A stretch of 64,000 nt of DNA from Zoogloea oleivorans (GTDB lineage Bacteria; Pseudomonadota; Gammaproteobacteria; Burkholderiales; Rhodocyclaceae): NCBI RefSeq assembly GCF_008107625.1, contig NZ_SDKK01000002.1, positions 159,756-223,755 on the forward strand, read 5' to 3'. Position 1 is the stretch's first letter. Each line of letters starts with the position of its first letter. Shown here one piece after another: positions 9,565 to 17,139 of the stretch. The notes beneath the pieces are model-generated. The model did not search any database. It had not been told where the DNA came from and saw nothing but the letters and a program-made list of their open reading frames with translations. Position numbers and translations under genes: made by a program.

Positions 9565-9924
9565 CTATCCCCTGGATGCCTCCTGCCGGGTCACGGACTC
9601 CGCCTGCAGCGCGGCCTCGATCACGGCCACTGCCTTTTCGGGCTGGGCGGCGCCGCACATGAACACATCCACCGCCGCAAACCCATGCTCCGGCCAGGTG
9701 TGAATGCTGATGTGCGACTCCTTCAGCAGCAGCACACCGGTCACGCCCAGGCCTGGCCCGAAGTGGTGAAACTCGCCACCCACCGGCGTCGCCCCGGCCG
9801 CCCGAGCGGCATCGCGGAGCAGGTTTTCGATGGCCAAGCAGTCGCCAAGATACGCAGCGCCAACGCCGTGCAAATCTACCAGCAGGTGGCGCCCCCGCGG
9901 AAGGTGAACGGCAGTATCGCTCAC
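9565..9924 (-). CDS. speD: S-adenosylmethionine decarboxylase, prokaryotic type
   Basis: The 119-residue product matches class 1B AdoMet decarboxylases. GRHLLVDLHGV opens the fold, and KESHISIHTWPE carries the self-cleavage site. Ser70 would become the pyruvoyl group, with His75 and Cys90 (DVFMCG) as processing and donor residues. The enzyme makes decarboxylated AdoMet, the aminopropyl donor for spermidine-type amines. I chose a GTG start because it overlaps the TGA of the upstream small membrane gene (GTGA) and gives the usual length; the longer ATG frame runs back through that gene. Its presence beside an aminopropyltransferase-like membrane protein argues that the cluster makes a polyamine or a polyamine adduct. 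Confidence 0.9.
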   Translation of the reverse strand: MSDTAVHLPRGRHLLVDLHGVGAAYLGDCLAIENLLRDAARAAGATPVGGEFHHFGPGLGVTGVLLLKESHISIHTWPEHGFAAVDVFMCGAAQPEKAVAVIEAALQAESVTRQEASRG

Positions 9925-10079
9925 TTGTGCCCACCGCCACCGGACGACCAGCCGCCGCCGGACGAGCCACTGTTCCAGCTGCGCGAACTGCCGCTCGAAC
10001 CACGCCGCTCGTCGACGTTTTCGAGGGTCGCGACGAGCACCACGATCAGCCCGAAAACGATGTAGCCCCAGCGCGTCAT
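9921..10079 (-). CDS. Small single-pass membrane protein with Gly/Ser-rich tail
   Basis: A 52-residue peptide: MTRWGYIVFGLIVVLVATLE forms one membrane segment, followed by a charged turn and a Ser/Gly/Trp tail ending GGGWSSGGGGHK. Its start overlaps the stop of the DUF4178 gene (ATGA), and its stop overlaps the start of speD (GTGA), so it is locked into the operon by two couplings. That placement argues that it is a real gene in spite of its size. Gly-rich tails of this kind also end YgcG/TPM-type membrane proteins. Function unknown. Confidence 0.7.
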   Translation of the reverse strand: MTRWGYIVFGLIVVLVATLENVDERRGSSGSSRSWNSGSSGGGWSSGGGGHK

Positions 10080-11569
10080 GACTTGTCCTCGAACAGACCT
10101 GTGTAAACGGGCAGCCACAGGACGATGAAGGCAACCAAGGTCACCACCCAGCTATACAGGCTCCCCATGAAAGACAGGGGAATGTTGACGAGCAACAGGA
10201 CGGCCGAGAAGGCGATGGCGAGGGGGCGCAGGGAGGCCCGCGGGTCGGCGTCGGAACGCGTGCTGCCGGCGTCGGCCAGCGACGCGACAAAAGCCCCGGC
10301 AGTCAGCTTGCCACCCTTGCCGAACCAGCCATCGACGGTACTCGCCGGCACGCGCTGGGCGAGGGACCAGGTGATTTCCGCCGGACTGCGCTCGCTGCTG
10401 AGGGTGCCGCGGCTGCCCCGGTAATCGGTGATGGAAACACTGTCGCCAACCTTGACCCTCCAGTTGAAGGCCCCGGCGGCGTAAATCACCTCGGCACCGT
10501 AGGCGATCATGCGCGTGAAGGCGCTGCCGTCGAGGCGCACCGCGCTGGCGGAAACCGACTCCGGCCAGCTGTCGAGCACCTTGACCTTGTCCCACGCCGC
10601 GGCGGATTCGACGAGCCACAAAAAACCGGCTGCTTCGCTGAACAACAGGTATTCGGTCCACGCCTCCGTCTCGCCCACCTCGCGGCAGCGCATCAGGCCG
10701 ATCAGACTGAAGGCATGGCCGTCGATCTTCGCCACGTCGCCGAGCGCCAGCGTCGTCGGCATCATCGCTTCACGGCGGGCCGCCTCCATGATCTCGACGG
10801 TACCGGTGGTGGCGTCGGATTCGGTGCCGCAGGCCGGACAGTGCAGATGGGCAGCCACCGCCGGACGCCAGCTGATGGACGCACCACAGGCCGGGCATTC
10901 CAGCGACGCAGCCTGGCCCTTGAGATGTCCGGCGCTACGGGCGATTTCATCGGGCTCGCGCAACAGCTGGCATTTGAGGTCGGCAAGACTGACCGCCTTG
11001 CCGACGTAACGGCGGGGCTGGGGACCATCGGAATAATCGAGGGTCAGAAAGCGGTGCGCCTGGCGGTAGTCGGCCACCCGGGCTTCCCAGCCGGCCCCCA
11101 CCTGGAAGGGCAGTTCGCCTTCGCCACCGGTGCAGCGGGCGGTGCGCAGATCAGCCGCCGAGTAGGTCACGCCCTCAAAAACGTAGGCACCACCGGGAAT
11201 GATCTGGCCGAAGGGCGGCGCATCGTCAGCGCGGCCGCTGTCGAGGGTGATCGCGTACTGGCCGGAGGCATCCGACAACCAGCCGCCCGTACCGTCGTCG
11301 AAGAGGATGTACCACTCGTTCCAGAAGCCCGCCTCGTAACGCAGCTGGATGCGCCCGACCACGCCAAAGGCCTTGCCGGCGTACATGCCCGAGGTGGTGA
11401 TGCGGATCGGCGAGTAATCCTCCAGCGCCACCGCCATCTTGCCCACGTCGCGCACCGCGTCGGCCTCGCGCAGCAGCGTGCTGCGGCAGTATTCGCAGAC
11501 GGCGATGGCCGAAGTGGCGGAACGGAAGGTGACCTCCGCGCCGCAGCTCGGACAGGCGAGCTTGAACAT
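10076..11569 (-). CDS. Double zinc-ribbon / DUF4178 membrane protein
   Basis: A 497-residue protein built of two similar halves. The first zinc ribbon (CPSCGAEVTFRS ... CEYCRS, residues 6-29) leads into a DUF4178 beta-domain (KAFGVVGRIQLRYEAGFWNE, then FDDGTGGWL). A second ribbon (CPACGASISW ... CPACG) near residue 225 leads into a second DUF4178 copy (HAFSLIGLMRCREVGETE, then YLLFSEAAGFLWL). The C-terminus carries two membrane helices. DUF4178 proteins have no established biochemical role but co-occur with SPFH, DUF350 and spermidine-synthase-like genes. The gene lies between the SPFH gene (eight bases apart) and the small membrane peptide. Confidence 0.82.
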   Translation of the reverse strand: MFKLACPSCGAEVTFRSATSAIAVCEYCRSTLLREADAVRDVGKMAVALEDYSPIRITTSGMYAGKAFGVVGRIQLRYEAGFWNEWYILFDDGTGGWLSDASGQYAITLDSGRADDAPPFGQIIPGGAYVFEGVTYSAADLRTARCTGGEGELPFQVGAGWEARVADYRQAHRFLTLDYSDGPQPRRYVGKAVSLADLKCQLLREPDEIARSAGHLKGQAASLECPACGASISWRPAVAAHLHCPACGTESDATTGTVEIMEAARREAMMPTTLALGDVAKIDGHAFSLIGLMRCREVGETEAWTEYLLFSEAAGFLWLVESAAAWDKVKVLDSWPESVSASAVRLDGSAFTRMIAYGAEVIYAAGAFNWRVKVGDSVSITDYRGSRGTLSSERSPAEITWSLAQRVPASTVDGWFGKGGKLTAGAFVASLADAGSTRSDADPRASLRPLAIAFSAVLLLVNIPLSFMGSLYSWVVTLVAFIVLWLPVYTGLFEDKS

Positions 11570-16247: not shown

Positions 16248-16260
16248 AGGAAGAATCGCC

Positions 16261-17139
16261 ATGCTCGCCGTCCGCACACAGCCCACACACCCGGCGCGAC
16301 GACAGCGGGGACTGCTCTTCAGCCTGCTCACCGTCCTGCTGCTGGGCTACGGCGCGGTCATCACCGGCATCGGACTGAACCAGGAGAGCCTGCTCTTCCA
16401 CCCGGAAGCACTGCCCGCCGACTTCAGCTTCGCCGGTCGCTACCCGCCCGAGCAGGACTTCGAAGAGATGCGCATTGCAGTAGACGGTGCCGAACTCGAC
16501 GCCCTGCTGTTCCGCCAGCCGGCCAGTCGCGGGCTGGTCTTCTACCTGCACGGCAATGCGGGCAACCTGGTCACCTGGACCAACAACGTGGACTATTACC
16601 GGCGCCTCGGATTCGATCTCTTCATGCTCGACTACCGGGGTTTCGGCAAGAGCACTGGCCACATCGCCAGCGAGGCCCAGTTGCACGCCGACGTACGCAC
16701 CGCCTGGGACCGGGTCGCCCCGGCCTACACGGGCAAGCCGGTGGTGATCCTCGGCCGCTCACTGGGTAGCGGCCTCGCCGCCCGCCTGGCAGCCGACGTG
16801 ACGCCGGACCTGCTGGTACTGGTGTCGCCCTACGCCAGCCTCGAACAGGTGGCGAAAGAGCGTTTTCCGCTGGTCCCGGGGATGCTGCTGAAATACCCCC
16901 TGCGCAGCGACCAGCTGATGGGCACCCTGAAAAGCCCGGTCCTGATCACCCACGGCGACCGTGACGAGGTCATTCCCTTCGCCCACGCCCAGGCGCTGCT
17001 CACGGCAAGCGGCGGACAGGCCGAACTGGTACAGGTGGAAGGCGCCCGCCATGGCGACATCCAGCGCTTCCCGGCCTACCTGGACGGCCTCTCCCGGCGC
17101 CTCATGGCCCTGACTGGAGAGCCGGCTCCGGCAAGGTAG
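16261..17139 (+). CDS. Alpha/beta hydrolase, BEM46/YfhR-like, membrane-anchored
   Basis: This 292-residue protein has an N-terminal signal-anchor (LLFSLLTVLLLGYGAVITGI, residues 18-37) and a hydrolase domain with the oxyanion loop YLHGNAGN, nucleophile box LGRSLGSGLAA, acid THGDRDEVI and a histidine in GARHGDIQR. It follows the amine oxidase-like gene after 13 bases with an AGGAAGA site, so it is probably the last gene of the rightward arm. Related proteins are serine hydrolases of unknown substrate. Its 3' end overlaps the 3' end of the convergent histidine kinase by 38 bases. Confidence 0.8.
   Translation: MLAVRTQPTHPARRQRGLLFSLLTVLLLGYGAVITGIGLNQESLLFHPEALPADFSFAGRYPPEQDFEEMRIAVDGAELDALLFRQPASRGLVFYLHGNAGNLVTWTNNVDYYRRLGFDLFMLDYRGFGKSTGHIASEAQLHADVRTAWDRVAPAYTGKPVVILGRSLGSGLAARLAADVTPDLLVLVSPYASLEQVAKERFPLVPGMLLKYPLRSDQLMGTLKSPVLITHGDRDEVIPFAHAQALLTASGGQAELVQVEGARHGDIQRFPAYLDGLSRRLMALTGEPAPAR

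Follow-up and report, generated by a model that had tools for sequence, protein, structure and literature searches.

We focus here on a gene cluster of Zoogloea oleivorans that joins an S-adenosylmethionine (AdoMet) decarboxylase to a membrane-bound aminopropyltransferase, and on the small lysine-ended membrane peptide encoded between its members. The cluster lies on a stretch of 64,000 nucleotides (contig NZ_SDKK01000002.1, positions 159,756 to 223,755; "the window" below means this whole stretch) in a host genome of 5.68 Mb, and it is arranged in two divergent arms. The minus-strand arm contains a DUF350 membrane protein (12608–13024; PF03994, 107.3 bits), an SPFH/Band_7_1 protein with a C-terminal SHOCT domain (11578–12588; PF13421, 264.8 bits; PF09851, 28.4 bits), a DUF4178 protein (10076–11569; PF13785, 108.7 bits over two stretches) with two CxxC zinc ribbons and, by eye, two C-terminal transmembrane (TM) helices, a 52-residue peptide (9921–10079) whose translation has one TM stretch and a Gly/Ser-rich tail ending in SSGGGGHK, and speD, which encodes a class 1b AdoMet decarboxylase (9565–9924, with a GTG start picked by eye; PF02675, 123 bits). 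By the gene coordinates, a short divergent intergenic region (13025–13077) separates this arm from the plus-strand arm, which encodes a membrane aminopropyltransferase of the PRK03612 type (13078–14628), with seven N-terminal helices followed by a spermidine-synthase domain, and a flavin amine oxidase-fold protein of the twin-arginine translocation (Tat) type (14628–16247). An alpha/beta hydrolase (16261–17139, plus strand; PF12146) ends this arm; it is peripheral, probably outside the unit, and was discarded as a core member since it adjoins the cluster in just 5 of 80 related loci. A preliminary description of the locus, which did not name the hydrolase, had listed all the other members in two divergent arms, together with overlaps of the ATGA, GTGA and TGATG type; every one of these genes is present and each overlap is found in the sequence, GTGA joining the speD start to the peptide stop and TGATG joining the synthase stop to the oxidase start. 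The class 1b assignment of SpeD is supported by TIGR03330 (129 bits, cut-off 75.65), and the protein contains ESHISIHTWPE, which matches the ESHxSIHTWPE-type sequence that we take to be the class 1b cleavage motif. A profile search of the genome shows it to be the sole PF02675 AdoMet decarboxylase of the host.

The cluster is conserved well beyond Zoogloea. A scan of a genome collection with the DUF4178 protein yielded 101 confirmed loci, of which 80 were kept. DUF4178 is adjoined in these by SPFH (79/80), DUF350 (76/80), the synthase (76/80), the oxidase (71/80) and speD (70/80), several of the absences being contig ends, and the arms occupy opposite strands without exception (76/76 loci). 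A second survey, for which the synthase served as the anchor, covered 299 evenly drawn Pseudomonadota genomes and found the synthase in 36 and DUF4178 in 23, one of the latter (G066) under the curated cut-off. Each of the 23 DUF4178 genomes also has the synthase, always on the contig that carries DUF4178, at a distance of no more than 5.4 kb in 22 of them and of 10.4 kb in the other. Were the genomes independent, which they are not fully, such full nesting would arise by chance with a probability of about 2e-25. The association of synthase and DUF4178 thus reaches far past close relatives, and the lack of such co-occurrence that the preliminary description had named as refuting its reading is not observed. 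The two collections partly overlap and include close relatives, so that counts are not independent events, and survey counts for SPFH, oxidase, DUF350 and speD are lower bounds, obtained with models trained on close relatives. A Corynebacterium glutamicum genome included as a control matches both synthase and DUF4178.

The most constant feature of the small peptide is its C-terminus. In all 77 evaluable loci, DUF4178 is followed directly by an open reading frame (ORF) whose last two residues are His-Lys (HK), the other three of the 80 loci ending too early to tell; the same strips contain 76 further ORFs of 30 residues or more, none of which ends in HK. All 77 peptides contain a 17-residue stretch with a mean hydropathy of at least 1.3 (at least 1.6 in 59), and Gly and Ser make up at least 50% of their last 30 residues. 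The last 40 residues differ in 69 of the 77 tails, and the residue preceding HK is Gly in 53, Ser in 21 and Ala, Asn or Arg once each. Similarity searching was abandoned as a means of finding the peptide: phmmer with the window peptide recovers only 28 of 80, and a rule based on the C-terminus was therefore adopted. Relatives of the Chitinibacter type carry a peptide with a lipobox-like LSSC or MSSC, and 10 of 11 stretches from further relatives (L112–L122) hold an HK ORF, with none seen in L120; the contig of L120 is as long as that of L048, in which an HK ORF does follow DUF4178.

Loci picked by the synthase alone show that the lysine, and not the dipeptide, is the shared element. The survey provided 35 such loci from 34 of the 36 synthase genomes; the remaining two genomes, that of the window and G048, both have HK tails. 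A linked tail protein ends in Lys in 32 of the 35 loci, with endings of the types GGHK, GRVK, GRIK, SRGK, RRGK, FGGK, GGK and SGK. In six loci (L129, L131, L133, L135, L141 and, in genome G235, L169) the TM stretch, tail and HK are fused to DUF4178 and form its C-terminal end; other forms are separate HK peptides, short peptides ending GRVK or GRIK, proteins ending GGK or SGK, and proteins of 311–387 residues ending SRGK, RRGK or FGGK, eight of which carry a lipobox. Three loci (L140, L156 and L159) have no Lys-ended tail nearby. When genomes G111, G116 and G202 were searched with the lipoprotein of another genome, G111 and G116 gave an unlinked homologue, ending RFGGGK and GIRGGK respectively and lying beside an ORF that by eye is DUF350-like, and G202, whose synthase sits at a contig end, gave none. 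Altogether, 34 of the 35 synthase loci can be assigned a tail, on a membrane protein or a lipoprotein, with Lys as its very last residue. The same residue closes the tails of four plasmid loci, from Novosphingobium (GPSHK), Tritonibacter (NRVK), Alteromonas (a lipoprotein, SSGK) and Burkholderia (GSHK). For a control set, hydrophobic ORFs having a Gly/Ser-rich tail were collected whatever their last residue: Lys is terminal in 25 of the 28 that lie on the synthase strand within 6 kb of that gene, compared with 3 of the 16 from other parts of the loci. Several stricter definitions were discarded on the way, namely an invariant HK, as the survey tails share only Lys; a lipoprotein in every lineage, as a lipobox was accepted in just 8 of 32 cases (a script had marked 10, but those in L131 and L143 look false); and linkage in a single operon, as the tail is unlinked in G111 and G116 and the cluster is interrupted in G235. 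In the last genome (L132, L169), ORFs of 1086 and 516 residues that by eye resemble restriction-modification genes separate the synthase from DUF4178.

The synthase itself clearly belongs to the membrane-fused family. It scores 683.6 bits with NF002956, the model of the PRK03612 polyamine aminopropyltransferase (cut-off 472), and only 126.6 bits with TIGR00417, the model of soluble SpeE (cut-off 249.55). The synthase domain spans residues ~245–467 of the TTG-start ORF, and a structural model (predicted local distance difference test score, pLDDT, 85) shows seven helices at its N-terminus and a catalytic half closest to 1uir, 7xif and 6bq2. We aligned 64 rows, comprising 62 relatives and the window gene twice (L023 is the same gene). 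The catalytic residues D384 and D387 are present in 64 of 64 rows, although this pair does not allow the acceptor to be predicted. Three aligned PDB chains have a QxxExDE motif, the Glu of which is replaced by Ser, Thr or Ala in 62 of the 64 rows. A search for anti-phage defence systems with PADLOC gave as its best match mad2, on the synthase (4.3e-19); this covers residues 301–445, which is the methyltransferase-like domain only, and a defence role was set aside.

Three separate parts of the system are predicted to lie on the same side of the membrane. First of all, the mean number of Lys and Arg residues over the 64 rows is 1.86 at the N-terminus of the synthase, then 0.33, 2.58, 0.19, 2.41, 0.73 and 3.52 in the successive loops and 2.06 after helix 7, so that the loops between helices 2–3, 4–5 and 6–7 carry 2.4–3.5 positive residues, compared with 0.2–0.7 in the others. 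By the positive-inside pattern the N-terminus would be inside and, with seven helices, this suggests that the catalytic domain is outside the cytoplasm. Second, the DUF4178 fusions, in which zinc ribbons, one TM stretch and the tail follow one another, and the lipoprotein forms suggest an external position for the tail as well. Third, the oxidase starts with MQRRRFL, in which R3 and R4 are conserved in at least 90% of 34 aligned sequences, as expected of a Tat signal, with the Pfam TAT_signal model scoring 14.4, below its cut-off of 22.7. Because all three point the same way, the chemistry would take place outside the cytoplasm.

Taken together, these data probably point to the C-terminal Lys of the 52-residue peptide as the acceptor of the aminopropyl group. 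The side chain of Lys, an aminobutyl amine, carries its primary amine on four carbons and is in this respect like one end of putrescine; moreover, the partner ends in Lys in all its forms. It is on these two grounds that we consider Lys as the acceptor. In the mechanism that we propose, SpeD would make decarboxylated AdoMet in the cytosol, the seven-helix half of the synthase would pass it outward, as an external catalytic domain requires, and the catalytic half would move the aminopropyl group to the epsilon-amine of the C-terminal Lys of the tail, here the peptide ending His-Lys. The expected product would be N-epsilon-(3-aminopropyl)lysine. The Tat-exported oxidase, in lineages having one, may then act on the external tail amine, and DUF4178, DUF350 and SPFH (or PspA, in the lineages of Ravi et al. 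2024) may organise the system at the membrane. We put forward the core of this scheme, in which decarboxylated AdoMet from SpeD is used by an envelope enzyme to aminopropylate the terminal Lys of a membrane-anchored tail, tentatively and with slightly less than even confidence.

Parts of this scheme have precedents. Li et al., in 2019, reportedly noted an AdoMet decarboxylase together with a membrane-fused spermidine synthase-like protein and its DUF350 association, and proposed an acceptor other than putrescine without naming one. Ravi et al. 2024 (PMC11237479), in the part considered here, describe a "second group" of PspA/CesT operons with a 7TM-spermine synthase, DUF350, DUF4178 and a lipoprotein, mention a variant with a band-7+2TM+SHOCT protein, an AdoMet decarboxylase and a polyamine oxidase, and suggest, citing Li et al. 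2019, that other substrates are aminopropylated. Neither the cluster nor the idea of a non-putrescine acceptor is therefore new. The present arrangement shares the synthase family, DUF350 and DUF4178 with those operons, whereas here SPFH stands in the place of PspA and the arms are divergent. A family search of the eight proteins of our cluster found no PspA, SPFH/SHOCT being there instead; the rest of the genome was not searched for PspA. That part of Ravi et al. 2024 does not mention the small peptide, the C-terminal Lys or the DUF4178-tail fusions, and the literature searched, some of it covered in part, yielded no named acceptor and no aminopropyl-lysine in this setting. The candidate acceptor, a C-terminal Lys tail, thus seems to be new. 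The preliminary description had already proposed aminopropylation of a membrane-located acceptor, which fits the evidence and, as seen above, was in print for the family; it left the acceptor open and took the peptide only as a companion. In one variant, on an Alteromonas plasmid (L124, 9001–15659), the synthase is accompanied by speD, a "toxic anion resistance" protein, DUF4178, the lipoprotein ending SSGK and DUF350, and the TelA-like protein seems to replace PspA or SPFH. Fused "spermidine synthases" on other plasmids were not retained: a Rhodovulum match is a fragment with no recognised partners, and two from Haloarcula have neighbours without a C-terminal Lys.

Other explanations deserve consideration. 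The membrane half of the synthase is strongly conserved, with E41, E136, R142 and D162 present in at least 95% of the 64 rows, as might be expected if the enzyme aminopropylated a membrane lipid or some other small amine and the Lys-ended tail were a docking or regulatory element; the substrate is, furthermore, left open in the part of Ravi et al. 2024 considered here. However, we noticed no gene for lipid synthesis in the two clusters that were annotated, neighbours not having been annotated systematically, and a docking role hardly explains a fixed last residue on tails that vary in length and sequence. We regard such an acceptor as unlikely. Less likely still is that the terminal Lys has no connection with the synthase and is either a ligand of SPFH, PspA or DUF4178 or the substrate of the oxidase, which would form allysine. 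With its Tat signal and its fold the oxidase would meet an external tail: its model (pLDDT 91) finds a monoamine oxidase (8p84) and the spermidine dehydrogenase SpdH (7d9h) as the best Foldseek matches, at E ~2e-21, with putrescine oxidase also among the best structural matches, and fold and NAD_binding_8 together identify a flavin polyamine or monoamine oxidase, while no Amino_oxidase Pfam match was found on it at E 0.1. On the other hand, Lys tails accompany 34 of 35 synthase loci and the oxidase model at least 9 of 35, and the Lys-ended tail thus tracks the synthase better than the oxidase.

We give little credence to an ordinary spermidine synthase that is merely membrane-anchored and supplies the cell or its envelope. 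Its canonical fold and catalytic Asp residues would suit that role, and no other TIGR00417 match exists in 7 of the 36 synthase genomes; 5 of the 36 have a match that exceeds the SpeE cut-off. However, the Glu of QxxExDE is replaced in nearly all rows, as noted above. Ralstonia pickettii, which has the complete cluster at two loci (L099, L101), is stated in the part of PMC7857480 drawn on here to produce putrescine and 2-hydroxyputrescine. Likewise, the relevant portion of PMC12803844, citing Li 2019, holds that bacterial homologues, perhaps of the present subfamily, of a fungal fusion of a membrane protein with an aminopropyltransferase-like domain are uninvolved in spermidine or spermine synthesis. 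The two statements together disfavour ordinary spermidine synthesis. The published reading of such genes as part of a phage-shock-like system for envelope stress, namely the arm that senses polyamines, with polyamine concentration and not covalent tail modification as the signal, would on its own leave the C-terminal Lys unexplained and is, in our view, quite improbable.

Returning to aminopropylation of the tail, several observations weigh against it. To our knowledge there is no precedent for the export of decarboxylated AdoMet, which an external catalytic domain requires, and the evidence for the topology consists of hydropathy, charge and an AlphaFold model. The C-terminal Lys could instead be a recognition or protease signal. 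Neither the oxidase nor SPFH (at least 7 of 35 survey loci) is universal. The rules for tails (Gly/Ser content, hydrophobic stretch and C-terminal residue) were refined during the work, and the first survey filter passed only Lys, Arg or Gly ends, a restriction that the control of 25/28 and 3/16 did not carry. On the supply of decarboxylated AdoMet, 34 of the 36 synthase genomes encode an AdoMet decarboxylase, PF02675 in 27 and class 2 PF01536 in 7 of the other 9 (G209, G241, G293, G320, G322, G332 and G344; L207–L213). This speaks for the scheme, as does the absence of any second TIGR00417 match from 7 of the 36, whereas G096 and G116, which match neither decarboxylase family, count against it. 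The preliminary description had stated that no ordinary speA, speB or speE lies here, which holds for speE within the window; across the genome, however, there is a soluble SpeE-like gene on another contig, which scores below the cut-offs of TIGR00417 and NF002010, together with three matches to the Orn/Arg decarboxylase family. Since the host has this soluble protein, SpeD may serve it as well as the membrane synthase.

The closest parallels lie in other polyamine-linked modifications of proteins. In Escherichia coli, the DUF1190 proteins YjfM (ending RGHWGG) and YgiB (ending SRSMGG) are encoded directly before YjfC and YgiC, annotated as peptide-spermidine ligases. The likeness to our cluster consists of a DUF350 neighbour (YjfL), a Gly/Ser/Arg-rich tail and a polyamine enzyme acting on peptides; the chemistry differs, YgiC and YjfC being ATP-grasp ligases by the literature and the enzyme here an aminopropyltransferase. 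The eight proteins of the cluster include no ATP-grasp ligase or DUF1190 family, and genome G000 has no DUF1190 match. Across 199 genomes, 27 DUF1190 matches in 24 genomes end in Gly-Gly (18), Ser (6) or otherwise (3), never in Lys, and 22 of the 27 have a YgiC/YjfC-like ORF within ~1.5 kb (taken by position in L192). Many of the DUF1190 proteins in L171–L195 also share an internal RGGFG-type motif. By analogy, two DUF350-linked systems may modify the C-termini of tails by different chemistry; an external tail would be a problem for ATP-grasp ligases, because ATP is inside. Compared with the SpeE spermidine and thermospermine synthases, the present enzymes share the catalytic fold and Asp residues and differ in the seven-helix N-terminal half, the replaced motif Glu and the conserved partner genes. 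Deoxyhypusine on eIF5A and the aminopropylated lysines of silaffins are examples of a polyamine-type group on protein Lys, made by different enzymes on different proteins, and we claim no homology.

Elsewhere in the window, a phasin-like protein (8330–8977, minus strand) and a hemerythrin-like ORF (9056–9376, minus strand), both named by eye, adjoin the cluster. A region at 38000–52000 has a G+C content mostly of ~0.48–0.55 (0.61 at 42–44 kb), compared with ~0.61–0.66 on both flanks; its ORFs resemble by eye an aromatic-ring degradation cluster, with a ring dioxygenase, an extradiol dioxygenase, hydrolases, an aldolase/dehydrogenase pair and an outer-membrane transporter, and it was possibly acquired.

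What the widespread membrane-fused spermidine synthases act on appears to have been an open question since at least 2019, and a conserved C-terminal Lys on a partner protein offers a single residue that is accessible to mass spectrometry. As a wider and still more tentative proposal, which we consider possible but doubtful, a membrane-spanning aminopropyltransferase of Proteobacteria would export decarboxylated AdoMet and convert the C-terminal Lys of a membrane-anchored tail into aminopropyl-lysine, as the counterpart of the YgiC/YjfC ligases that would decorate Gly-Gly tails, so that polyamination of tails would be a general envelope signal reached by two unrelated chemistries. If aminopropylation of the tail is correct, it would add a post-translational modification and a polyamine chemistry outside the cytoplasm, would link polyamines to the envelope-stress proteins SPFH, PspA and DUF350, and would explain why an AdoMet decarboxylase is retained by a bacterium reported to be without spermidine.

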